Shown: positions 2,186 through 21,663 of the stretch, one piece after another
How the letters are laid out: every line of letters starts with the position of its first letter
How positions within the stretch are numbered: position 1 is the stretch's first letter
From: a virus
IMG/VR virus record: IMGVR_UViG_3300031952_000172
Span: 1 to 21,665 of that record
DNA: 21,665 bases
Reading direction: 5' to 3' (one strand)
The notes under the pieces: generated by a model
What the model was told of the DNA's origin: nothing
The model's database searches: none
The model's input: the letters and a program-made list of their open reading frames with translations, nothing else
Program-made: the position numbers and the translations under genes

Positions 2186-2749
2186 TTATAACCTACTATT
2201 TAACCATTGGTCTTGTTGCGCTTCGTCTGGAGTAACTTCTTGCCCGTTCATTGATTTAGCGTAATTTAACTTTATCATAAATTCCTGTTTCCTTATTTTC
2301 TCCACATCCTTATCCCTTGTGATTGAATAAGCTAATTCGGCCGCCAATTTTGCCGCAAATGCTTCGACAAACGCATCATCATATTGCGTTGGGTCTGTGC
2401 AGAAATAAACATATTCAATCTTTACGGCATCCGCGTTACTGTATAACCTGCGCCCTTTTATCTTGTGTGAATAATCAGGTTCAACGCTTGTCTTATTCAA
2501 ACGCACAAAATCGGGAGGTAACTCGTATATATGCGCGTAATCTTCCAATACCGGAACCTCGGCAAGTTGCGAAAGAGTTGTTTCTTTTTTGGCAAAACTC
2601 CACGGGTGGCTACGCAATAAAGCGCGCAGATACATATTATATCCGGCACTCATCTTCCAAGCGTTTTCACTATCTTCGTCTATGGCCGCTATACTTACGG
2701 CCCCTAAACTACGTAAGGCTAAATTGCAGATTTCAACCTGTGAGGCCAT
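2186..2749 (-). CDS. Tail adaptor / tail tubular protein A-like (T7 gp11-type)
   Basis: This 187-aa protein has the family layout: an N-terminal helix with A-L-R-S-L-G-A, a central L-L-R-S-H-P-W-S-F-A motif (about residues 44-53), then Y-x-L-P-P-D-F-V-R (about 95-103), and a helical C-terminal half rich in Ala and Glu. In known podophages such proteins form a ring between portal and nozzle. Length and position just before the nozzle gene fit. The ATG at 2749 lies 17 bases inside the end of the upstream Wzy-like gene, which suggests translational coupling. Confidence is good because motif, length and context agree. Confidence 0.85.
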   Translation of the reverse strand: MASQVEICNLALRSLGAVSIAAIDEDSENAWKMSAGYNMYLRALLRSHPWSFAKKETTLSQLAEVPVLEDYAHIYELPPDFVRLNKTSVEPDYSHKIKGRRLYSNADAVKIEYVYFCTDPTQYDDAFVEAFAAKLAAELAYSITRDKDVEKIRKQEFMIKLNYAKSMNGQEVTPDEAQQDQWLNSRL

Positions 2750-3878
2750 CGAGTTTACTCCTTTCAGCCATTGCCATATAAATTATCAATAGCAATCCTA
2801 TCGCTGAGTGCATTGAAAATATTGATAAAGACGCTAAAATACACGCCACTAAACCGCAGGTGATGATTAAGTTGTGCTTTTTAAGTTTCCTGAATGTAGT
2901 AATAAAATACCCACACACAATAAATAAGCCAATCAACCCCAATTCAGTAGTTAAAGAAATCGCCTCATTGTGAGAATGCGCCCATTTTTGGTCATCGGGT
3001 TTGATTTCTTTCCTTATAATAGACGCAAGGAAAGGTTCTTGCCCCAAGCCCCAACCGATTATGGGCCGTTTGGGTATCAACTTGGTTATATGGAAATTCC
3101 ATACTTCACGCCTGTTACTTAAATCTAAAATATTAGGGACGCTTTCGGAAGTTGTGAAATACATGGTAAATATTAAGATTACGGGGATTAGAAATAATAA
3201 ACCTTTCCTCCCGAATTTTACCCCTAAGAATATTGCGGAAATTATAACGCAGGTCAATATCCCGCCAAAGGAATGGATAAGACCCAATGCCAAGATTATG
3301 AAAAAAACTAAACGTATACGTTCCTTTCTAAAGAACGCGGGTAAGCACATAGCAAGGAACGCCGAGGCTATATTCGGGTTATCAAGAAAACCTACGGGAA
3401 CAGCCCTGATTTGATTGCCGAATATATATATTGAATGCAGTGTTTTTGGGAATAAAATATGGCAGGCAGTCCCGGTAGGAACACCTAAAGGAAAAGTTAT
3501 AAACCATACTCCGAAACTTTGCAGGATCACCATAGCAGATTGAAGTAAAGCAAGCCCGCAGATGACATTCAGTATGGTATTGATTCTATCCTTGTTTAAT
3601 TTATCCGATAGTATCTGAAATAAAACCATAGCAAATACAATCGTATGTAAGGTAATCTGGGAGAATTGATTTAACCCTATCACTACCCTTAATATGCACC
3701 ATATCAAAAATAACCTGACCCAGATATTCTTAATAAACCATAATGCGATAGCAAAGAATATCGCCCACTCGACAAGGATGACCTTGCCAGTGCGAAAGGG
3801 TAGGAATCCTGGGATAAACCCCAGGACTCCTACTCCTATCACCATCCAAGATGCAATCTTGAACTTTAAATCCCGCAC
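2733..3878 (-). CDS. O-antigen polymerase/ligase-like membrane protein (Wzy_C family)
   Basis: The product is 381 aa with roughly ten hydrophobic segments. Motifs of the Wzy/WaaL O-antigen ligase family are visible: G-F-L-D-N-P-N at about 163-169, R-x-x-V-W at 257-260, P-I-I-G-W-G-L-G at 272-279, A-H-S-H-N-E at 300-305 and E-L-G-L-I-G at 312-317. Family members polymerise or ligate lipid-linked glycan units at the periplasmic face of the inner membrane. Translation appears to start at GTG 3878, directly after the TAA of the exported-protein gene, with AGGA about five to six bases upstream. The gene also overlaps the tail adaptor by 17 bases, so it is embedded in the late operon. A role in altering host surface glycans (serotype change or superinfection exclusion) is inference. 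Substrate and direction of effect cannot be read from sequence. Confidence 0.85.
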   Translation of the reverse strand: MRDLKFKIASWMVIGVGVLGFIPGFLPFRTGKVILVEWAIFFAIALWFIKNIWVRLFLIWCILRVVIGLNQFSQITLHTIVFAMVLFQILSDKLNKDRINTILNVICGLALLQSAMVILQSFGVWFITFPLGVPTGTACHILFPKTLHSIYIFGNQIRAVPVGFLDNPNIASAFLAMCLPAFFRKERIRLVFFIILALGLIHSFGGILTCVIISAIFLGVKFGRKGLLFLIPVILIFTMYFTTSESVPNILDLSNRREVWNFHITKLIPKRPIIGWGLGQEPFLASIIRKEIKPDDQKWAHSHNEAISLTTELGLIGLFIVCGYFITTFRKLKKHNLIITCGLVACILASLSIFSMHSAIGLLLIIYMAMAERSKLDGLTG

Positions 3879-4763
3879 TTATTTCCTGTTGTAGTAAAAT
3901 TCAGCATAGGATACTTCTAAATCACCCGTGCCGGTTGAAACATTATCTCTCCACGTCCTTAAAGTTACTACTTTTTCAGCGGCAAGTCCCGTAAAATCAG
4001 TTGCCGGTGTAAGTGTAACTATACAAGGAGTTCCTGCACCGGTTGATAATGCAACAGGTGTTTGATCAGTTGCCGCGGCATCCCAGGCGGTATTGTTACC
4101 ATTGACATATACATCAAAGTCAACCTGTTCAGGTGTAGTTGAATTAGAACTATCGCAGAATAACCTGAACGCACCCCCGGAGAGATAATCGCTTGGAACC
4201 TTGAAAGTTACCTGAACCGCACTCGTTTCACCATCAGACCAAACAATATCCGGAATAACATTATCAATCTCAAGTCCCGGAGTTGTTGCCGTAGTCAATG
4301 GTGTGCCAGTATTCTCAAACAAGAAACTGTTTAATGGCAATTCTACAGTCCCTACATTCGGAGTAGACAAGGTAATAGTCGTAGCGCTTATAGTCGGTGA
4401 ATTTACTATAGTCGCATTTACGTTAATAATATTACCTGTTGTAGCGGTAATTGTCGTACCGTTTACAGTCGTTCCTATGATCGCCGCCGGAGTAACACCG
4501 CCGATGACACTACTGTTAAGAGTAGAACTCGTGATTGTTGCCCCTGAGATAGTACCTGATGTGATTGCCGCTATCGGGCCACTCGGTTGTGTAACCGTAA
4601 AAGTAGAACCATCAGTCGTTATCGTGGTTCCCGATGGCCAGTTAATATCCGTGGCGGCCCCTTGAGTAACTCCATCAAGTTTTACACCTACCGATGCTAA
4701 TGCCGGAGATACAATGAATATCGCCATCAGCAATGTCAAAAATATAATTATGAACTTTCGCAT
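3879..4763 (-). CDS. Exported beta-repeat protein of unknown function
   Basis: The protein is about 294 aa. It begins with a short basic n-region, a hydrophobic core and an A-L-A cleavage site near residue 23, a classic Sec signal peptide. Residues about 35-150 are Thr/Ser/Ile/Val-rich with repeated T-I-T and I-x-G/S patterns, like beta-solenoid or trimeric fibre shafts. The C-terminal 140 residues look like a beta-sandwich domain rich in aromatic and Asp/Asn residues, ending in Y-Y-N-R-K. Of two adjacent ATGs, the inner one at 4763 has the better spacing to the AGGAGG site. It abuts the Wzy-like GTG start. It may be a host-surface (moron) protein made with the Wzy-like enzyme, or a fibre or decoration protein with a signal-like N-terminus. 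No specific function is recognised. Confidence 0.75.
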   Translation of the reverse strand: MRKFIIIFLTLLMAIFIVSPALASVGVKLDGVTQGAATDINWPSGTTITTDGSTFTVTQPSGPIAAITSGTISGATITSSTLNSSVIGGVTPAAIIGTTVNGTTITATTGNIINVNATIVNSPTISATTITLSTPNVGTVELPLNSFLFENTGTPLTTATTPGLEIDNVIPDIVWSDGETSAVQVTFKVPSDYLSGGAFRLFCDSSNSTTPEQVDFDVYVNGNNTAWDAAATDQTPVALSTGAGTPCIVTLTPATDFTGLAAEKVVTLRTWRDNVSTGTGDLEVSYAEFYYNRK

Positions 4764-4780
4764 CATTCCCTCCTATTTGA

Positions 4781-4810
4781 TAATGAAGCGGGATTGCTCC
4801 CGCCCCATTA
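4781..4810 (-). promoter_or_regulatory. Stable intergenic hairpin with GNRA-type loop
   Basis: Read on the minus strand, TAATG pairs with CATTA (outer) and GCGGGA pairs with TCCCGC (inner, 6 bp), around a GCAA tetraloop. There is no T-run after it on the minus strand, so it is a poor intrinsic terminator for the operon. It sits between the decoration-like gene and the SD of the exported-protein gene. It could mark an mRNA-processing or 3'-end-protection site, or tune translation. On the plus strand it is followed by a T-rich stretch, so a weak terminator for antisense transcription is possible. Confidence 0.5.
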
Positions 4811-4818
4811 TTGTTTAT

Positions 4819-5265
4819 TTAGCCTTTGCAGACATAGAAGATGGCCACAATGACTTTTACAGCAGCAGCCGCGCCACCACCTAAAGTCAAAGTCGGAATC
4901 TGTCCATCGCCAGCAGAAATCTCATATCCTAATGAACCTGCTACGCCGTTGGCTTCATAATTTTTCTTTGCAGCGCCAGCTCCGCAATCTGCGGCAGCCA
5001 TAAACACAGCAGCAGACGCAAGGGTTCCAAAAGCAAGCGTCCTGTTATTTGCTAAATCACCGTGGTCAATATCCCAACCTACAACACGCGCTTCAGCAGG
5101 TAATTTCATCCCGCCTAACTGGATTACATCTGCTGCCGCTTCGGTTGTCAGAAAGGTATATTCGTCAACCAAACAATGTATCTTTCCACCCTGTAACTCC
5201 GGCTCGATCTTGGCGGTTGTCCCGGTTCTTTGTAACGTTTTGTTTACTCCGTAAAAAGTAGGCAT
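4819..5265 (-). CDS. Putative capsid decoration or minor virion protein
   Basis: The 148-aa protein is predicted mostly beta. It has a pattern of a short charged N-terminus, L-V-D-E-Y-T-F, then L-P-A-E-A-R-V-V-G-W-D-I-D and a Gly/Ala-rich C-terminal half. Proteins of this length and general pattern often lie next to the major capsid gene in phages and are found in virions. It lies 47 bases downstream of the capsid gene. The ATG at 5265 has GAGGAGG about eight bases upstream. There is no motif with a biochemical meaning, so the role rests on context. Confidence 0.6.
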   Translation of the reverse strand: MPTFYGVNKTLQRTGTTAKIEPELQGGKIHCLVDEYTFLTTEAAADVIQLGGMKLPAEARVVGWDIDHGDLANNRTLAFGTLASAAVFMAAADCGAGAAKKNYEANGVAGSLGYEISAGDGQIPTLTLGGGAAAAVKVIVAIFYVCKG

Positions 5266-5312: not shown

Positions 5313-6173
5313 TTATTCCGTGCAACCTACACGGACTACCTTTACTTCTTCTAACCTTGTTGCGCCATAAGACTGGCCTGCGTATATCTGCGCTGAGAAG
5401 TGGATACCCGGCATAATATCAATAGACGCTTTCAGATCAATCCATGTACCAAGCACCATGCCTGATTTATGGTATGCGGCGCAATATCTTGTGGTCGCAA
5501 GAGCTGGATCAACCGGCAATCTTTCAGTCTGAACGAAATTAAACCCACAAATCGTTCCCGGCATACCACTGACTAACGCCTTGACCTGCGCGTAATCAGC
5601 CGAGGTTGCTTCTGTAATAGCCAGCAAATCCTCTACCTGTTCAGCGGAAATAGCAAAAGACCTGTTATCCGCTGGTACTTCATTTTGATCAAGAACCTTC
5701 TTTGCCTGACGGATTTTAGCCATAGTCAATCCGGTTGCGCCTGCGGCAATCAACTGTTTACCGGCTAAAGTGGCATCAACGGTTCCTGCTTTTCCACTCT
5801 TAGCGACAGCAAAAAAGGCGTTACAAACTACCTCATCTTTTGCGCGGGCTAAAGAAGCGGCGTTATTCTGCACGACTTCGCTGGTCGGGTCTTTGGCTAA
5901 CAATACTTTGTCCATATTGTCAACTAAAGGCGCTTTGTAGAAATAACGTGGGAAGATTGCCCTGCGGGCATAGTTCGGATCGGTATTTCTTACAACTTCG
6001 TTTCTTGCTAATTTCTCATCTGCATCTTCGGAAGCCAACTGATCCTGGAATGAGATTTCTCCGGTGCAGTTTGGTTTCTGAGTTACCGTGGGAGCGACTT
6101 TCAATGTCATCTGCTGAGTAAGCAGCATGATATTGTCGCTGTATTGCTGGACTAATGCAGTATCAACGGCCAT
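5313..6173 (-). CDS. Major capsid protein (Phage_capsid_2-like, HK97 fold)
   Basis: The product is 286 aa. Features seen in this capsid family are an N-terminal segment with Q-Q-Y-S-D-N-I-M-L-L-T-Q-Q, a middle I-F-P-R-Y-F-Y-K-A-P-L-V-D-N-M-D segment (about 73-88), an A-A-D-domain-like region with I-S-A-E-Q-V-E-D-L-L, and a C-terminal S-A-Q-I-Y-A-G-Q-S-Y-G-A-T-R-L-E-E-V-K-V-V-R. It would form the icosahedral shell. The start is fixed by a near-perfect AAGGAGG eight bases before the ATG, the strongest SD in the late region, which fits a highly made protein. Scaffold lies upstream, separated only by the HNH gene. The assignment combines family pattern and position. Confidence 0.88.
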   Translation of the reverse strand: MAVDTALVQQYSDNIMLLTQQMTLKVAPTVTQKPNCTGEISFQDQLASEDADEKLARNEVVRNTDPNYARRAIFPRYFYKAPLVDNMDKVLLAKDPTSEVVQNNAASLARAKDEVVCNAFFAVAKSGKAGTVDATLAGKQLIAAGATGLTMAKIRQAKKVLDQNEVPADNRSFAISAEQVEDLLAITEATSADYAQVKALVSGMPGTICGFNFVQTERLPVDPALATTRYCAAYHKSGMVLGTWIDLKASIDIMPGIHFSAQIYAGQSYGATRLEEVKVVRVGCTE

Positions 6174-6310: not shown

Positions 6311-6329
6311 AGAGGTTTATACCTTACCT
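6311..6329. repeat. Direct repeat copy flanking the HNH gene (left)
   Basis: AGAGGTTTATACCTTACCT matches the copy at 6837..6855 at 17 of 19 positions in the same orientation. This copy encodes the last codons and stop of the HNH gene. The pair brackets the HNH gene almost exactly. Confidence 0.6.
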
Positions 6330-6799
6330 TTTGTTACGGATAATTTTCTACCATCAAAGATAATATCCTTTGGGTCAATAGATAGATTTTGTTCAAATCT
6401 TGAATGAGTCCCACTTTTCGCAAATCCCATTAGATTTTCAGGATTATTATCATCCTTGATTTTGTTAATATGATGTACTACTTCCCATCTATGGAGATAA
6501 CGACCAATCATCTTTTCTACAATCAAACGATGTTCATAAACATAATTGAGGCAGTTCCTAAAAGGGTGATTCAAATCTTTAATAAAAATATGTCCATCAT
6601 AAGATTTCACCCTATCTTTAGACTTAGCGCATTTTTTAGAACAAAATTGTCCTCGGTTTCTTTTTCTTTCGCTATTCAAACTAAAGAATTCCATCTTACA
6701 TTTTTGACAGTTTAAAATTTTTCCAAAATGTCTTGCTTTTCCTGATGGATATTCTATAAATAGTTTATTACCTTCAAATTTTACTCTATCAAGTTCCAT
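6317..6799 (-). CDS. HNH endonuclease (HNH_3-like) with N-terminal zinc finger, inserted in the capsid operon
   Basis: The 160-aa protein has a Cys pair C-Q-K-C near residue 30 and a second group C-S-K-K-C near 53-57, a likely zinc ribbon. The C-terminal half carries Y-V-Y-E-H-R-L, then V-V-H-H-I-N, N-P-E-N-L and a final S-G-T-H-S-R-F, which is the HNH motif (HH, N, H) of phage homing-type nucleases. Such enzymes nick or cut DNA and often spread themselves between related phages. It lies between scaffold and capsid genes, which are normally adjacent, and has imperfect 19-bp repeats at both ends. AAAGG precedes the ATG by about five bases. It clearly resembles the HNH part of the fusion gene at 21106..21663. 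Confidence 0.88.
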   Translation of the reverse strand: MELDRVKFEGNKLFIEYPSGKARHFGKILNCQKCKMEFFSLNSERKRNRGQFCSKKCAKSKDRVKSYDGHIFIKDLNHPFRNCLNYVYEHRLIVEKMIGRYLHRWEVVHHINKIKDDNNPENLMGFAKSGTHSRFEQNLSIDPKDIIFDGRKLSVTKGKV

Positions 6800-6820
6800 T
6801 CTAACCTTTATCCGACTTCT

Positions 6821-6837
6821 TGTTCAACTCTTGAACA
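6821..6837. promoter_or_regulatory. Perfect 17-bp dyad upstream of HNH gene
   Basis: TGTTCAA-CTC-TTGAACA has 7-bp perfect arms with a 3-bp centre. It lies in the 69-bp gap between scaffold stop and HNH start and touches the left end of the 6837 repeat. It has no T-run, so it is not an intrinsic terminator. It could be an operator or RNA hairpin limiting HNH expression, or part of a nuclease recognition site. Function is not known. Confidence 0.4.
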
Positions 6838-6855
6838 GGGGTTTACACCTTACCT
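6837..6855. repeat. Direct repeat copy flanking the HNH gene (right)
   Basis: AGGGGTTTACACCTTACCT differs at two positions from the copy at 6311..6329. It lies in the gap after the scaffold stop codon. See the HNH gene for context. Confidence 0.6.
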
Positions 6856-6868
6856 GTCCGCAAGTTTA

Positions 6869-7873
6869 TTACCCTACGATCATTTTGTTCAACTGCATAA
6901 CCTTGTCCACAAAATAATTATGCTGGTGATGTCCAGCTTCATAATATGGATGTTTCGGGTCAGCTAATATCTTATCTTTCTCTAACTTTGCCGCTTCCGG
7001 TGAAAGCAATACCCCTGACATATCTGATCTTGTCAATGCTTCTTCGCTCAGGTTTCCACCTATGTTGGCAAGCATTTCTATAATCACCGGGTCATTGCCG
7101 TATTTCTTGGCAATCGCATCGCCTTGTTTAGGGTCTGCGAAGTTCCTAAGCACGTTATTGGCCAGTTTAGCCTTTTCATCATAAGCCACGCCCCATTTAT
7201 TCCTTAATGCCAGGGCAGACTCATTAAAAGCCTTCTCATTTGCGTCCTTCTGGGCCTGTGTGCCTTGATTAAGCACTGTAGCAAGCTCATCCATTACCAA
7301 AGCGTATTGATGCGGCAGGAAGCCTGCTTTGTGCAGTTTGGCGTTAAAATCACCCATAGACTTAGCATCCAAAGCCATACCTTCAGGAAGTTTGAAATTT
7401 GCCGATGGTTTATACTCTTTAGGGTCTTTCGGGCGGCCCAACTGTGTCATTACCCGGTCAAGTTCACCCTGTTCATAATTGCCGTCCTTATCCTTCTTAG
7501 GCATTGCGATTTTCTCATGGCCTACGAGTTTCTCTAATTCTGAATATCCCTTTATGGTATCTCCGGGAGTTTTCCAACCTTTCACTCCGACCAATGCCTT
7601 ATGTTCCGCATCTAATGATGTAGTCCAATCACCTTGAGCAGCAGGTGCTTTAGGCTTATAACCTGATAGGAACTCATCAAAAGATTTGAAGTCTGCCACA
7701 TCTTCTGATGTCGCTCCTGAATTGGTGATAAAATTAGTAACTGCCGGCCTTGATTCCTCTGCAACCGATTCGATAAACGGGATTACGACTTCGCCTCTAT
7801 TCCCTAATTTCTTGAAAAAACTCTTTAATGTTTTCTGGGCATTTGTTATCCACTTGGGGCAAATGTTGTCCAT
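6869..7873 (-). CDS. Capsid assembly scaffolding protein
   Basis: The product is 334 aa, hydrophilic, Lys/Glu/Ala-rich and mostly helical. It has a segment typical of podophage scaffolds: W-T-T-S-L-D-A-E-H-K-A-L-V, G-W-K-T, I-K-G-Y-S-E-L-E-K-L-V-G and K-I-A-M-P-K-K-D (about residues 82-127). Later come R-P-K-D-P-K-E-Y-K and a C-terminal acidic/basic tail ending near H-H-Q-H-N-Y. By family knowledge it would template procapsid assembly and be lost before or during DNA packaging. AAGGAG precedes the ATG by seven bases. Position between portal and capsid fits. The HNH gene splits it from the capsid gene. Confidence 0.8.
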   Translation of the reverse strand: MDNICPKWITNAQKTLKSFFKKLGNRGEVVIPFIESVAEESRPAVTNFITNSGATSEDVADFKSFDEFLSGYKPKAPAAQGDWTTSLDAEHKALVGVKGWKTPGDTIKGYSELEKLVGHEKIAMPKKDKDGNYEQGELDRVMTQLGRPKDPKEYKPSANFKLPEGMALDAKSMGDFNAKLHKAGFLPHQYALVMDELATVLNQGTQAQKDANEKAFNESALALRNKWGVAYDEKAKLANNVLRNFADPKQGDAIAKKYGNDPVIIEMLANIGGNLSEEALTRSDMSGVLLSPEAAKLEKDKILADPKHPYYEAGHHQHNYFVDKVMQLNKMIVG

Positions 7874-7876
7874 TTG

Positions 7877-8041
7877 TTACTCCTTTTTAAATAAGTTTTT
7901 AATAAAGTTTACCAATCTATGCCAAAAGCCGGATTTTTGGACACCTGTCCTTACCGAAGGACAACCGACCGGCTGAATCTCTAAAGGATGCCGCTTTAAA
8001 TACCACCTGCTTCTTGGATTATGTTTTTCGCCGTAGCCGAT
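7877..8041 (-). CDS. 54-codon ORF lacking a standard start, directly after the Bbp19-like stop
   Basis: After the TAA of the Bbp19-like gene the same frame stays open for 54 codons to a TAA four bases before the scaffold ATG. It has no ATG, GTG or TTG near its beginning. The first codon is ATC, with AAGGGGG about six bases upstream, so initiation at ATC, or readthrough of the UAA, would be needed. The peptide starts I-G-Y-G-E-K-H-N-P-R-S-R-W-Y-L-K-R-H-P-L and ends in a basic amphipathic stretch. It has protein-like composition and fills the gap exactly. Its end supplies the scaffold SD. It could also be a decayed or non-coding segment. No function is recognised. Confidence 0.45.
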   Translation of the reverse strand: MGYGEKHNPRSRWYLKRHPLEIQPVGCPSVRTGVQKSGFWHRLVNFIKNLFKKE

Positions 8042-8314
8042 TTATTCCCCCTTCGTTAAATCCTCAAGTATCTGCTTTAAGTCTTTTTCCAATAGATTCT
8101 TGATATGGACATAGATACTGCGCCTGCCTTCATTGAAACTCATCTGACCATGATTATCGTTATAGGTCGTATGGTTTATGAAGCAACGCTTCTCTAAATC
8201 CCTAAGGACTTTCCGCCCATCTTCCGAGTCAAATACGCGCTGATATAATTGCTGATTTTCAGTAATCTGTTTTTCTATTTCCCGCAACTGTTTTTTATCT
8301 TCGTAGCCAAACAT
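8042..8314 (-). CDS. Bbp19-like phage protein
   Basis: The 90-aa protein has the family pattern: Y-Q-R-V-F-D-S-E-D-G-R-K-V-L-R-D-L, then E-G-R-R-S-I-Y-V-H-I-K-N-L-L. It is mainly helical. Homologues (named after a Bordetella phage BPP-1 gene) lie beside portal genes; the molecular role is not firmly known. The ATG shares one base with the portal stop (TAATG), and the SD is an AGGAG inside the last portal codons, so the two are translationally coupled. Confidence 0.75.
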   Translation of the reverse strand: MFGYEDKKQLREIEKQITENQQLYQRVFDSEDGRKVLRDLEKRCFINHTTYNDNHGQMSFNEGRRSIYVHIKNLLEKDLKQILEDLTKGE

Positions 8315-9939
8315 TATTTAACTCCTGCCGGCACTTGCGCCTCTTTGATATTCCGATCCGCTTCTGTGGCAACCTTAGTCGTTTCTACGCCCTGTTTCAT
8401 CATCTCCATCTGCATTGCTATTGCCTGTTGCTCTGCCCTGCCCGTCCTTATATCCAAAACTTCTTCATCATCTCTTATAACTTTTGGCGTTATATTCGTT
8501 ACCTCTGCGGTATAATCCACCAATTCATCGAAGTCAATCTTATCAAAGGTTTCTGGATTGACCTGGCCGAATGAAGCGATAATCTGCATTGCCTGGCTGA
8601 GATTATTCAACTCCAGGGATTTCTGCGCCCGGGCAAGAGGAGAGATATATTGGATCACATATTCTTCATTGATTAACTCCGGGGGAAGTGAGGGCAATTT
8701 ACCAAGCCTTGCCGCGATAGAATATATATTCTCAATCGTAGGGCTTAATTTCTCGCGCATGATATTTCCGATTGCGCTCCCGAGTAATTGCATACGCTGA
8801 TTATTGCGGATATTCACTTCTGTGGCGGTCATATTGCCTATTTGCTGGATCATCACAAATAAATCGTTATAGAACGCCTGGGCCACCTTCTCCTGTTTAT
8901 ATTTCACATAATCCAAACCTAAAGGCACATTCGCCGCCGTATTGATAGGTACAATATGCTCATTAGGATAACCGGCGTTCTTGATATTTATGCCACGAGG
9001 GTTAAAGTTAAACGGCCTAAGAAAAGCCTCATCCGGCACTTCTAATGGCGGGGCTACCATCAACTGAGCACCTAAGATATTAGTCTTTTCCATCTGATTG
9101 AGCATCTTAATATCCGGGAAGATATTATCGGCTACTGCGTATCCATAAGGGTTGCCTTTAGCCTTAGCGAAACGCGATACCATAAAACGAAATTCCCTGA
9201 AACCTGATTCCCTGACCACCTTGATAACCTTACGGTCAATCCACAATGCCGCATAAGGCATATTTTTAGAATCTTTCTTACCCTGGTCATAGACTTCTCT
9301 TGGGAATACGCAGAATAGATATTTGAATTTAGTCGTATAATCACCCTTCTCATAACACTTGAGGACATCCTCTCCTACTGCCTTGCCGAATTTGCCATAG
9401 GCTTGCGAAGCAGTAAATTCATATTCTATATAAGCCGTATTGACTCTGTTAGCCGCGTCATTGCAGATGATCACGTTCTCAATAGATAAACTATCAAACC
9501 TTATATCCTCTTTTAAATCTTCCTCAAGATAAAGTATATCCGTGCCGATTGCGCCAAGCCCAAGATAACCCTCGACATCTTCCTGATAGAAATTTGAACC
9601 GTTGATCATTCCATACAACACATCTTCGGTATCTTTCAGATAATCCAGGATATTGCGCCTGGTCATCAGGTTGCGGTTACGCAGTCCGATTGTGAACCAT
9701 TTGGTCTGCGGCCCGGACATATAAGCCTGCATCCCCGCGGCAAAATAGGCATTGGCCATAATCGCTGTCGAGTCATAAATATCAGTAGGGGCCCTATCGC
9801 CTAAATTATAATTGCGGGTAATATAGGCTTTGCGAGGCAGGCAATAATAGGTTTTCTCCTGCCAATAAGCCTCAAGAGATGCCCGGTTGCCCTTTTCTGT
9901 GTCATAAATACGTAAGTGTCTTTGCGCTATATTTTCCAA
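8314..9939 (-). CDS. Portal protein (head-to-tail connecting protein family)
   Basis: The product is 541 aa, the usual size. The N-terminus has the family pattern W-Q-E-K-T-Y-Y-C-L-P, D-I-Y-D-S-T-A, A-A-G-M-Q-A-Y-M-S-G-P-Q-T-K-W-F and a later G-L-G-A-I-G-T-D-I-L-Y (about residues 25-137). A stem-like region follows (Q-Q-I-G-N-M-T-A-T-E-V) and a Gln/Met-rich helical C-terminus. The dodecameric portal is the DNA gate at one capsid vertex and docks terminase and tail. The start appears to be TTG at 9939, with GGAGG six bases upstream embedded in the final Gly-Gly codons of the preceding gene. Motifs and neighbours agree strongly. Confidence 0.92.
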   Translation of the reverse strand: MENIAQRHLRIYDTEKGNRASLEAYWQEKTYYCLPRKAYITRNYNLGDRAPTDIYDSTAIMANAYFAAGMQAYMSGPQTKWFTIGLRNRNLMTRRNILDYLKDTEDVLYGMINGSNFYQEDVEGYLGLGAIGTDILYLEEDLKEDIRFDSLSIENVIICNDAANRVNTAYIEYEFTASQAYGKFGKAVGEDVLKCYEKGDYTTKFKYLFCVFPREVYDQGKKDSKNMPYAALWIDRKVIKVVRESGFREFRFMVSRFAKAKGNPYGYAVADNIFPDIKMLNQMEKTNILGAQLMVAPPLEVPDEAFLRPFNFNPRGINIKNAGYPNEHIVPINTAANVPLGLDYVKYKQEKVAQAFYNDLFVMIQQIGNMTATEVNIRNNQRMQLLGSAIGNIMREKLSPTIENIYSIAARLGKLPSLPPELINEEYVIQYISPLARAQKSLELNNLSQAMQIIASFGQVNPETFDKIDFDELVDYTAEVTNITPKVIRDDEEVLDIRTGRAEQQAIAMQMEMMKQGVETTKVATEADRNIKEAQVPAGVK

Positions 9940-10787: not shown

Positions 10788-12347
10788 CTATGCCTCCAAC
10801 GGATGATAAGCCGGCGATGTTACAGGCTGACGTTTATAATTTCCGTTTAAAATGTCATATCCCTTTACCTGCTCCACTTCCATACCTTGCCTATTCATCC
10901 GGCCCTTGATTGGGGCTTTGGCTATCTGTTGTTGCATAGCAAAGGCATCTATCAGATCAACATAAAGCGATTTAAAACCGTCTATCGTAACCCCCGTAAG
11001 TTCAGTTTCAAGTTCGGCAAGCCAGGGAGAAAATTCAGGTAATTGGATTGTATGGGCCTTAAATCTAGGGGCCAACATCTTCACTCTTTCTAACTTTGAA
11101 CCCACCGAGGCGTGTTCTATCGGCACAATATCAAAATAGATATTCCTGCGCTGCATTTCTTTATAGATGAATGGTTCTAATATCTGTTTGAAATGACCTT
11201 TCTCTATGCCTACCGGGATGCGCCGGGAGCCGCCTAAATATGGTGTCCACTTGATCACAACCTCAAATAACTTGTCTATAAATTCATCTGACTTCCACCG
11301 GCCATAAGGGAAGTCCACTATCGTCCACATATTCTGTTCTGATACCGCATTGACGCAGATTGCCCGGTAGCAAGCTGATTTATTGACACTTGAAGCCGGA
11401 TCAACTGTGATAAACAAATTATGGTCTTTGATTATGTTATCCACATAAAGATATGAATAACGGACAAAATCTGCCTTATCGAATACCCTGGATTCAATAC
11501 TTGTGGCCTCGCACATCCTTTCCCTCATCCATACATCAATCTGGCCTACCCTGCGGAAACTTTCCCTTTGCTTTTCTATTTCAGGCAGGGGAAACTTCTC
11601 GATCCAGTTCGGCTCGCCCTGTTCATTCAATATCGCAACCTTGCGGGTCTGAAAATTCAACTCTCCCGCGGCATTGAATACCCTCTCAACGATACATTTT
11701 TCACCTAGGTTATTGCCGATTAAGAATATCCGGGTATGCTGGCCCAGGAACATCACATCGGATAAGAACCATAACCAGTCGCTTTCCAACACTGTATCGC
11801 TACGGGCATCCTCTGTGTCCTGGATGTCATCGCATACGCATATCTTGGGCCTTCTGTCTACGTTGGACAGGCCCCTGATTGATGAACCCTTGCCATAGGC
11901 TTCAATGCGGATATTATGGATTTTGCCCTGGGCATCCTTTACATCAGCCGAGAATATGGAGGCTGATTTTTGTTTTACTTCCACAAGATTGGCGTTTAAT
12001 GCAGGATTGGTCAAGTATTCGGTTTCTATTTCGAGGAGTTTTTGCGCGGCAAGTGTAGCGTTCTGTTTGATTAAAACTATATAATCCCTCTCAACGGTAG
12101 GGAACATCAGGCAATGCAACGGGAATGACCGCAAGACAATCTGCCCCTTCCCGGATTCCCTAAATCCTTCAATGGCAAAATTGTCTATTTCTTTCAGTAA
12201 TATATCCGACCATTCATAATGATATTTGGGAGGGGCAACCTCATCTTTGCCATTTACAAGCATCAGGTATCGGAAATCAACAAGAGTCTGGCGGGATAAC
12301 TCGACTCTCTCTTTGAGCGCCGCAATCTGATCAGGGGTAAGATTCAA
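10788..12347 (-). CDS. terL: Terminase large subunit
   Basis: The 519-aa protein has an N-terminal ATPase with a Walker A-like G-F-R-E-S-G-K-G (61-68), an RNA-helicase-like G-S-S-I-R-G-L and R-R-P-K segment (154-168), Walker B I-C-V-C-D-D-I-Q-D (169-177) and a coupling motif I-G-N-N (about 210-213). The C-terminal nuclease domain begins with F-I-T-V-D-P-A-S-S, whose Asp316 is a likely metal ligand, and ends with a further acidic D-L-I-D-A-F motif. It packages genome DNA through the portal and cuts it. The start is probably TTG 12347, with AAGGA about six bases upstream. The putative small subunit lies just upstream. Confidence 0.95.
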   Translation of the reverse strand: MNLTPDQIAALKERVELSRQTLVDFRYLMLVNGKDEVAPPKYHYEWSDILLKEIDNFAIEGFRESGKGQIVLRSFPLHCLMFPTVERDYIVLIKQNATLAAQKLLEIETEYLTNPALNANLVEVKQKSASIFSADVKDAQGKIHNIRIEAYGKGSSIRGLSNVDRRPKICVCDDIQDTEDARSDTVLESDWLWFLSDVMFLGQHTRIFLIGNNLGEKCIVERVFNAAGELNFQTRKVAILNEQGEPNWIEKFPLPEIEKQRESFRRVGQIDVWMRERMCEATSIESRVFDKADFVRYSYLYVDNIIKDHNLFITVDPASSVNKSACYRAICVNAVSEQNMWTIVDFPYGRWKSDEFIDKLFEVVIKWTPYLGGSRRIPVGIEKGHFKQILEPFIYKEMQRRNIYFDIVPIEHASVGSKLERVKMLAPRFKAHTIQLPEFSPWLAELETELTGVTIDGFKSLYVDLIDAFAMQQQIAKAPIKGRMNRQGMEVEQVKGYDILNGNYKRQPVTSPAYHPLEA

Positions 12348-15906: not shown

Positions 15907-16176
15907 TTAGCCGTAGCCGTCGCCGTAGCCGTTGCCGTCGCCGTCGCCGTTGCCGTTGCCGTTGCCGTAGCCGTAGTCGTTGCCGTCGCCGTTGCCGTTG
16001 CCGTCGCCGTCGCCGTTGCCGTTGCCGTTGCCGTAGCCGTAGCCGTCGCCGTAGCCGTTGCCGTCGCCGTCGCCGTTGCCGTTGCCGTTGCCGTTGCCGT
16101 AGCCGTCGCCGTCGCCGTTGCCGCTGCTGTTGCCGATTAAACTATGAGCGTCCTCGTTTACAGTTTTGATTGCCAT
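15907..16176 (-). CDS. Gly-Asx/Tyr repeat protein
   Basis: The 89-aa protein has a normal 18-residue N-terminus and then about 70 residues of strictly alternating Gly-X, where X is almost only Asn, Asp or Tyr. At DNA level it is a hexamer array GGC-NAC, with the variable first base G, A or T, and one exception (GAC in place of GGC). Longer blocks such as Y-G-N-G-N-G-N-G-D-G-D-G-N-G recur, pointing to segmental duplication. Similar Gly-rich repeats occur after DUF6948-type genes in other phages, as far as I recall. The role is unknown. The ATG overlaps the DUF6948-like gene by 19 bases, with GAGGCGAG just upstream. Confidence 0.7.
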   Translation of the reverse strand: MAIKTVNEDAHSLIGNSSGNGDGDGYGNGNGNGNGDGDGNGYGDGYGYGNGNGNGDGDGNGNGDGNDYGYGNGNGNGDGDGNGYGDGYG

Positions 16177-20862: not shown

Positions 20863-21119
20863 CTTTCCCACTTTCCCTTTCCTCCACACTCCCGGCAAGG
20901 TAGCATTTCTGTCTTTCTTAACAAGTGCCATAGCTGAAGTGCCTTTTTGAATATGCCCTTTTCTCCATAGAATTGGTTAATGACATATTCTTTCAATTCA
21001 TCTGTATCGGCATACACCTCACCCTCGCCGTTGCACTCATCACATACCACTACTTGCCAATGGTAATTGGCAACACTGTTGCCTGAACCACCGGAATATC
21101 CTGACTTAACGATTGTCAT
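20853..21119 (-). CDS. DnaJ-type zinc-finger small protein
   Basis: The 88-aa protein has two C-x-x-C-x-G-x-G motifs, C-D-E-C-N-G-E-G and C-R-E-C-G-G-K-G, separated by a helical linker, as in half of a DnaJ zinc domain but without a J domain. Such phage proteins are common; the roles are mostly unknown. AAAGGAGG lies seven bases before the ATG, within the end of the upstream fusion gene (14-base overlap). Confidence 0.7.
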
Positions 21120-21663
21120 ATATCACCTCCTTTTGTAAGAAATATTTAACTAATCTCACCCAATTAGGATTTATATCAGGTGGAGAATAGGTCTTACCAA
21201 GAAATACGATAAAATCACCCTTACCATTCCACCGTTGTCTTGCGTGGCGAATTGTATTAAGACAAACTTGCCGAGGATTTTTACATTTAATCATTATGCC
21301 GTAAGGGTGGGATTTGCTGTTTTCTGCTTTAAAGATTGCATTGGCGAGTTGGGAATCGGTATAAGCAAAGGCATTAGAAAAGGACAACACCACTATGATT
21401 AAAATTACTACCCATCTTCTTAAAAAATGATGTAATTTTTGATGTTCTCCGTTTTCTAAAAGTGCAATATTTTCTTTACGATTGTCGTCTTTAATACCGT
21501 TTATATGGTGAATTTGTTCTTCAGATTTAAGATACCTTCCAAGTTTCTTTTCCATAACAAGGCGGTGTTCATAGACATAACCATTATGATTAAAGGGGTG
21601 ATCAGGAATATAAATTAAGATATACCCTTCAGACTGTCTAAATTTTCTACCTTTATTTATTAG
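21106..21663 (-). CDS. HNH endonuclease fused to a secreted domain, partial at right edge
   Basis: The frame is open to the window edge, giving 185 visible residues; the true start lies outside. The HNH part reads Y-V-Y-E-H-R-L, then [16 protein letters not shown] and H-Q-K-L-H-H. It is directly followed, without a stop, by R-R-W and a hydrophobic core ending in N-A-F-A (near 21364), a signal peptide or membrane anchor. The last 85 residues have [31 protein letters not shown] and [11 protein letters not shown] recall this as a small exported phage protein family; a muralytic role is only a guess. The HNH is related to the 6317..6799 gene. Confidence 0.75.

Follow-up and report, generated by a model that had tools for sequence, protein, structure and literature searches.

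A gene at positions 2733–3878 (minus strand) of the 21.7-kb virus record analysed here, whose full 21,665 nucleotides are referred to as the window, encodes what appears to be a glycan transferase of the inner membrane, belonging to the WaaL/Wzy superfamily, and occupies a swap-prone slot among the virion genes of a podovirus that is probably lytic. The product has 381 residues, begins with a GTG codon and is a Wzy_C-family membrane enzyme (O-antigen ligase/polymerase superfamily) with a predicted GT-C fold.

The virion genes around the enzyme gene all share its strand. They encode the terminase large subunit (10788–12347; PHROG 38, E 5e-63), the portal or head–tail connecting protein (8314–9939; Pfam PF12236, E 4e-112), a scaffold/protease-like protein, the major capsid protein (5313–6173; Pfam PF19821, E 2e-60; PHROG 3437), a small capsid-adjacent protein, dec148 (4819–5265), the tail adaptor gp11, which is tail tubular protein A-like (2186–2749; PHROG 394, E 3e-47), and the tail nozzle gp12, which is tail tubular protein B-like (2–2182; PHROG 376, E 2e-153) and continues past the window end. 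The product of dec148 has no family match in Pfam or PHROG; it is kept in close relatives, and "decoration protein" is a guess from its position after the capsid gene. It forms the upstream border of the slot, which in the window holds two genes, one for an exported protein of 295 residues (3879–4766, minus strand) and one for the enzyme. The start codon of the enzyme gene (3876–3878) abuts the stop codon of the upstream reading frame (3879–3881) with a gap of 0 nt. Its 3′ end overlaps the start of gp11 by 17 nt (2733–2749), and the gp11 Shine–Dalgarno sequence, AAAGGAG, lies within the enzyme gene. The initial annotation had described a GTG start touching the upstream stop and an end overlapping the tail adaptor, and these coordinates were confirmed exactly.

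Several further features were observed in the window and its relatives, the latter designated by L numbers. The window carries an HNH or HNH-like endonuclease gene inside the virion operon (6317–6799). Similar genes were seen in L001 (437–958, 2298–2741 and 5061–5594), L010 (9123–9596) and L017 (4405–4983), and they occupy different gaps of the operon in each relative, on either strand, as mobile insertions do. At 21106–21663 an HNH_3 endonuclease domain continues in frame into a signal-peptide-like stretch, as it might if an endonuclease had entered an exported-enzyme gene or become fused with it. A hexanucleotide array of about 38 copies of GCCGTT (15910–16135) sits in a reading frame (15907–16176, minus strand) encoding a Gly-Asp/Asn/Tyr repeat protein. 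Small inserted domains were found in tail proteins: gp12 of the window contains E1_FCCH repeats, the L024 tail adaptor (8001–8852) contains CBM_5_12 insertions, and the L113 adaptor (6608–7774) resembles such tail proteins by eye.

Searched against Wzy_C (PF04932), the window protein scored 39.5 bits (E 6e-10) with a curated cut-off of 31.7, and the Wzy_C assignment made in the initial annotation was thereby borne out. The cut-off was also exceeded by the homologues from L109, L113/L114 and L115, and by L001 in a genome search; those of L003 and L024 fell slightly under it when searched singly. No PHROG or NCBIfam family matched the enzyme. A hydropathy count indicated about 10 membrane spans, and the Wzy_C motifs R..W, GxG and His-Asn...ExG are all present. 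Across eight phage homologues R256, W260, P272, G275, G277, H303, N304, E312 and G314 are invariant, with R256 and H303 as candidate catalytic residues. Searched against the PDB, a profile of the eight sequences matched WaaL, the O-antigen ligase, and nothing else (7TPG, E 0.0077); R256 and H303 align there with WaaL R265 and H313, whose roles have been described (PMC10920833). A four-sequence profile likewise had a single match, an oligosaccharyltransferase (9rmk, E 0.009), again with matching Arg and His. Both E-values are weak, and the argument rests on the shared residues. The equivalent of WaaL Arg-191 is not invariant: a single Arg is conserved throughout the eight phage proteins, and other residues stand opposite the Arg of E. 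coli WaaL, in a region where the alignment is weak. The second diphosphate-binding Arg of WaaL thus appears to be missing.

An AlphaFold2 model of the window protein, built from four sequences, had a pLDDT of 42 and was set aside. The fold result concerns the L115 homologue, which is 21% identical to the window protein and gave a model with pLDDT 64 and pTM 0.68. This model superposed best on WaaL (7TPG; Z 14.8 over 295 residues, rmsd 4.8), followed by FtsW and RodA (Z 8.7–11.6), with unrelated folds below Z 6. WaaL ranked at the top only with a second-look aligner; plain Foldseek returned no significant match for the model in the PDB or BFVD. The L115 homologue is accordingly modelled, rather than observed, in the GT-C(B) fold of WaaL. 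The structural match that had been proposed as a check therefore stands for this homologue, while the window protein's own model was poor.

The catalytic-site residue was considered as a discriminator between activities, with His reported in ligases and Asp or Glu in most polymerases (PMC10920833). This was rejected: the Wzy-beta polymerases of phages D3 and epsilon15, whose function is known, carry His-Asn at that site too, so the rule does not decide between ligase and polymerase here. PglL_A (PF15864) gave no match to the window protein at E up to 0.1, nor to the L109, L113 and L115 proteins at E up to 1. The enzyme belongs, as judged from sequence, to the WaaL/Wzy/PglL superfamily, within which polymerases, ligases and protein oligosaccharyltransferases are inseparable by sequence. 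Of the "Wzy polymerase" of the initial annotation, the superfamily is supported and polymerase is one candidate activity beside ligase and protein transferase: neither sequence nor fold discriminates, and the nearest solved fold is that of the ligase WaaL.

The slot order capsid, decoration, exported protein, Wzy_C enzyme, gp11 was found in six further phage lineages besides the window. The enzyme in this position is 91% identical to the window protein in L001, 77% in L003 and 24–25% in L024. The last was recovered with a tail-adaptor query; its contig of 42,463 bases has 2,839-base ends repeated with one mismatch, so that the genome is complete, at about 39.6 kb. A query with the N-terminus of the exported protein recovered a second, distant clade (L107, L109, L113/L114 and L115) with capsids about 35% identical to that of the window, and L109, L113/L114 and L115 share its slot order. 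An assembly chimera, raised in the initial annotation as a possible explanation, was rejected because several independent contigs, L001 and L003 among them, have the gene at this position; the survey of relatives proposed there found the gene between capsid and tail genes repeatedly. Overall, Wzy_C was absent from 47 of the 50 records searched. Sister phages with capsids 57–68% identical to the window's pass directly from the decoration gene to gp11 and have neither gene, and about seven sister lineages, as well as HTVC010P, have nothing in the slot. In L004, from the window's own clade, the exported protein is followed by the start of a different membrane protein, cut by the contig end. That start (4883–5135, SGDDSEIINYHY...HGINIFLHL) has the look of a PMT-like glycosyltransferase by eye; assignment as a PMT/ArnT-like enzyme was set aside, the 84 available residues finding no support in Pfam, PHROG, PDB or phage searches. 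Two scans of genome contigs and tblastn of phage and plasmid collections yielded nothing usable on cellular relatives or on the host. No description of a Wzy_C gene inside a virion operon was found in the open-access literature, with subscription papers mostly outside that search.

The constant partner encoded upstream of the enzyme is new here and did not figure in the initial annotation. A signal-peptide gene precedes the enzyme in all seven phages with no same-strand gene between them; in L001 an antisense HNH gene separates the two. The exported proteins range from 168 to 322 residues. That of the window has a Sec-type signal peptide (read by eye), a conserved N-terminal module ('SVGVK-DG---GAATDIN'), Ser/Thr-rich repeats and a variable C-terminus; the C-terminal part varies strongly across phages, and the L024 protein is without the Ser/Thr-rich repeat. 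Sisters lacking the exported protein also lack the enzyme, and L107 has the exported protein and no Wzy_C gene. Used as the sole query, the exported protein turned up four phage lineages that were new, and three of these have an adjoining enzyme gene. As L109, L113 and L115, which are among the seven slots, were found in this way, they are unusable for estimating how often the enzyme occurs without its partner. Other signal-peptide proteins, fibre-like and with virion-like domains, were noted past gp11 or near tail genes in L113 (7778–8305), L109 (5694–6275) and the L024 genome (L090, 5043–5483); those of L113 and L109 appear by eye to have the exported partner's C-terminal domain in common.

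Among the window, L001 and L003, dN/dS of the enzyme gene was 0.10–0.21, about two to four times the values for capsid and gp11 and far below 1, so the gene is maintained under purifying selection. Comparison of the window gene with that of L001 (5741–6871) revealed two blocks, codons 39–76 and 305–342, that are identical including silent sites while the remainder has diverged, a sign of recombination between related phages. Exchange is also seen at greater distance. The capsid tree divides the phages with the exported protein into two clades, both supported (99/99 and 100/99). The L024 and window capsids are 74% identical, whereas their enzymes share 25% (49 bits, a weak match); the L024 enzyme aligns full-length with those of the distant capsid clade, at 32% over 378 residues (164–169 bits). 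These identities contradict the capsid clades, which means that one enzyme has been exchanged or substituted for another at this position.

Signals in and around the slot suggest a low output of enzyme. Clear ribosome-binding sites, mostly strong, precede the decoration, exported-protein and gp11 genes. That of the enzyme gene is weak in the window and L003 and absent at the other loci. Strong hairpins without a U tract lie upstream of the exported-protein gene in the window (4780–4811, minus strand, between the decoration and exported-protein genes; −21 kcal/mol), L024, L004, L113 and L115. A second hairpin, between the exported-protein gene and the next gene, is present in L024, L109, L113, L115 and L004 (z −3.3 to −6.2); in the window and L003 these two genes have neither a gap nor a hairpin between them. 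Hairpin positions around the exported-protein gene in the relatives are 6876–6935 in L024, 3716–3780 in L109, 5431–5555 in L113, 5504–5565 in L115 and 4826–4890 in L004. The hairpins are possibly RNA processing or stability elements isolating a highly expressed exported-protein gene. Given the weak or absent ribosome-binding site and, in most relatives, the hairpin, enzyme output is probably far below that of virion proteins. Neither feature is mentioned in the initial annotation. Scans for promoters and terminators gave matches no more frequent than in shuffled sequences. A single transcript from which the enzyme is made in catalytic amounts is likely on these sequence features, and the position in the operon suggests late timing. 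The tight overlap emphasised in the initial annotation is kept as close packing, with enzyme-to-gp11 distances of −29 to +4 nt across the seven loci, and not as an exact 17-nt overlap.

The reading preferred here, to which about an even chance is given, is that of a late, translationally throttled envelope-glycan transferase that would exclude superinfecting phages or mask debris. A small dose of enzyme, its translation coupled to that of highly expressed neighbours, would insert into the host inner membrane late in infection. There the diphosphate of a host glycan linked to undecaprenyl-PP may be held by R256, and H303 may activate an acceptor facing the periplasm. O-antigen or another envelope glycan would thereby gain new linkages or caps, and with its surface so changed the doomed cell, or its debris, would be bound less well by late superinfecting phages or by the progeny of the phage itself. 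Versions of the enzyme would differ between phages because host glycans differ. O-antigen, the putative substrate in the initial annotation, goes beyond the sequence evidence here. In favour of this reading count the Wzy_C match, the WaaL matches by profile and by superposition, a slot conserved in two supported capsid clades, purifying selection, the swapping of enzymes, a complete L024 genome in which no tyrosine integrase was found, and tight same-strand packing with virion genes, unlike D3 and epsilon15. Functional precedent comes from seroconverting phages (PMC4815439) and from the Gnarls of lytic phages (PMC12373910). Weighing against the envelope-glycan reading, it does not predict the partnership with an exported protein in seven of seven phages, the enzyme has one invariant Arg where WaaL has two for the diphosphate, and the good fold match belongs to a homologue at 21% identity, the window enzyme itself having modelled poorly.

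That partnership is what a dedicated O-oligosaccharyltransferase would explain, a PglL/PilO-like enzyme transferring host lipid-linked glycan to the exported protein encoded upstream, and the protein so glycosylated would do its work on the surface of the cell or on virions once released. Besides the unbroken upstream linkage, the joint absence of both genes from sisters and the three in four lineages recovered with an adjoining enzyme, this proposal draws on the oligosaccharyltransferase match of the four-sequence profile (E 0.009, with its Arg and His), on the Ser/Thr-rich window partner and on gene neighbourhoods: a pilin target is encoded beside pglL in 21 of 31 cases, and the PilO gene adjoins that of its pilin even though PilO lacks the PglL motifs (PMC3643930). 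It is set back by the missing PglL_A match, by L107 with its exported protein and no enzyme, and by a partner whose C-terminus varies strongly and which in L024 is without the Ser/Thr-rich repeat; it is considered rather unlikely, though a serious candidate. A more specific glycosylation pair, in which a fibre- or decoration-like phage protein is exported to the periplasm, a phage-encoded WaaL-like enzyme adds the host's surface glycan to it, the sugar-coated protein covers virions or debris, and enzyme swapping matches host glycan types, is regarded as a long shot.

The empty slot in some seven sister lineages and HTVC010P, together with HNH genes that entered nearby gaps too (for example L001 5061–5594), could indicate a mere hot spot for host-acquired cargo, the two genes being unrelated passengers without a role in the phage cycle. 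Against this stand purifying selection on both genes and a gene order common to two capsid clades about 35% identical and packed tight against gp11; given selection and conserved order, idle cargo is improbable. Classical lysogenic conversion, with the enzyme active at an early stage, during lysogeny or in some persistent state, is judged just as doubtful. The window is a 21.7-kb fragment of a genome that is in part unseen, and a small HTH protein and a recombinase of the resolvase type are encoded by the complete relative. Against this, 12 records, among them the complete genome of L024, yielded no tyrosine integrase, and the enzyme gene lies on the strand of the virion genes, packed between them, whereas the converting genes of D3 and epsilon15 are on the opposite strand. 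On this gene content the window's phage group likely grows lytically. An IS607-like serine resolvase with a MerR-type HTH was observed in the otherwise integrase-free L024 genome (L089, 5129–5731).

The phage enzymes known to alter surface glycans have mostly been products of lysogenic-conversion genes. An enzyme of the WaaL/Wzy type that two distant podophage clades retain among their capsid and tail genes, that has been swapped between those clades and that is tied to an exported partner is a pointer to the remodelling of glycans in the course of lytic growth. It suggests that phages, here uncultured distant relatives of pelagiphages, remodel host-cell or exported glycan while building particles. 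Enzyme and exported protein form a testable pair for superinfection exclusion, debris masking and phage-directed protein glycosylation.

The nearest phage-borne counterparts are the Wzy-beta proteins of D3 and epsilon15, Wzy_C enzymes of 386–392 residues (D3 under the curated cut-off) that show the same Arg and His-Asn motifs in alignment. D3 and epsilon15 are temperate, and their wzy-beta genes lie opposite the late strand, near tail-spike and lysis/integrase genes. They also encode an inhibitor of the host polymerase of 31–66 residues, and D3 an acetylase (PMC4815439). No short reading frame of the inhibitor type was recognised in the window slot, where the neighbours are the 295-residue exported protein and gp11. 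The phages described here differ in having the enzyme gene on the late-gene strand, between decoration and tail-adaptor genes, with a 168–322-residue exported partner and no integrase found. The opposite strand of the D3 and epsilon15 genes, which sets them apart from the late genes, contrasts with the shared strand, 0-nt gap and 17-nt overlap of the window gene, in agreement with the view of the initial annotation that it is not separately controlled as in most known converting phages. HTVC010P-type pelagiphages, the nearest cultured relatives by capsid protein (39%), arrange portal, capsid, decoration-like gene, gp11 and gp12 in the order seen here, and their slot is without the exported protein and the Wzy_C gene. 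WaaL (7TPG, CAZy GT121) is the solved structure closest to the family by both the eight-sequence profile and the L115 superposition; the phage enzymes differ from it in lacking an invariant first Arg (the R191 equivalent) and in lying outside any LPS locus. PglL and PilO, of the same superfamily and weakly matched through 9rmk, share the adjoining exported-protein gene, but the phage enzyme is without the PglL_A domain and its partner is not a pilin. The closest likeness in proposed benefit is to Gnarl proteins and T5 Llp, for which a surface change after entry would keep progeny or rivals from binding; lytic-phage proteins that modify O-antigen, with debris masking as the proposed benefit, provide a precedent (PMC12373910). 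Gnarls have 40–90 residues and are probably non-enzymatic, whereas the gene described here encodes a full transferase.
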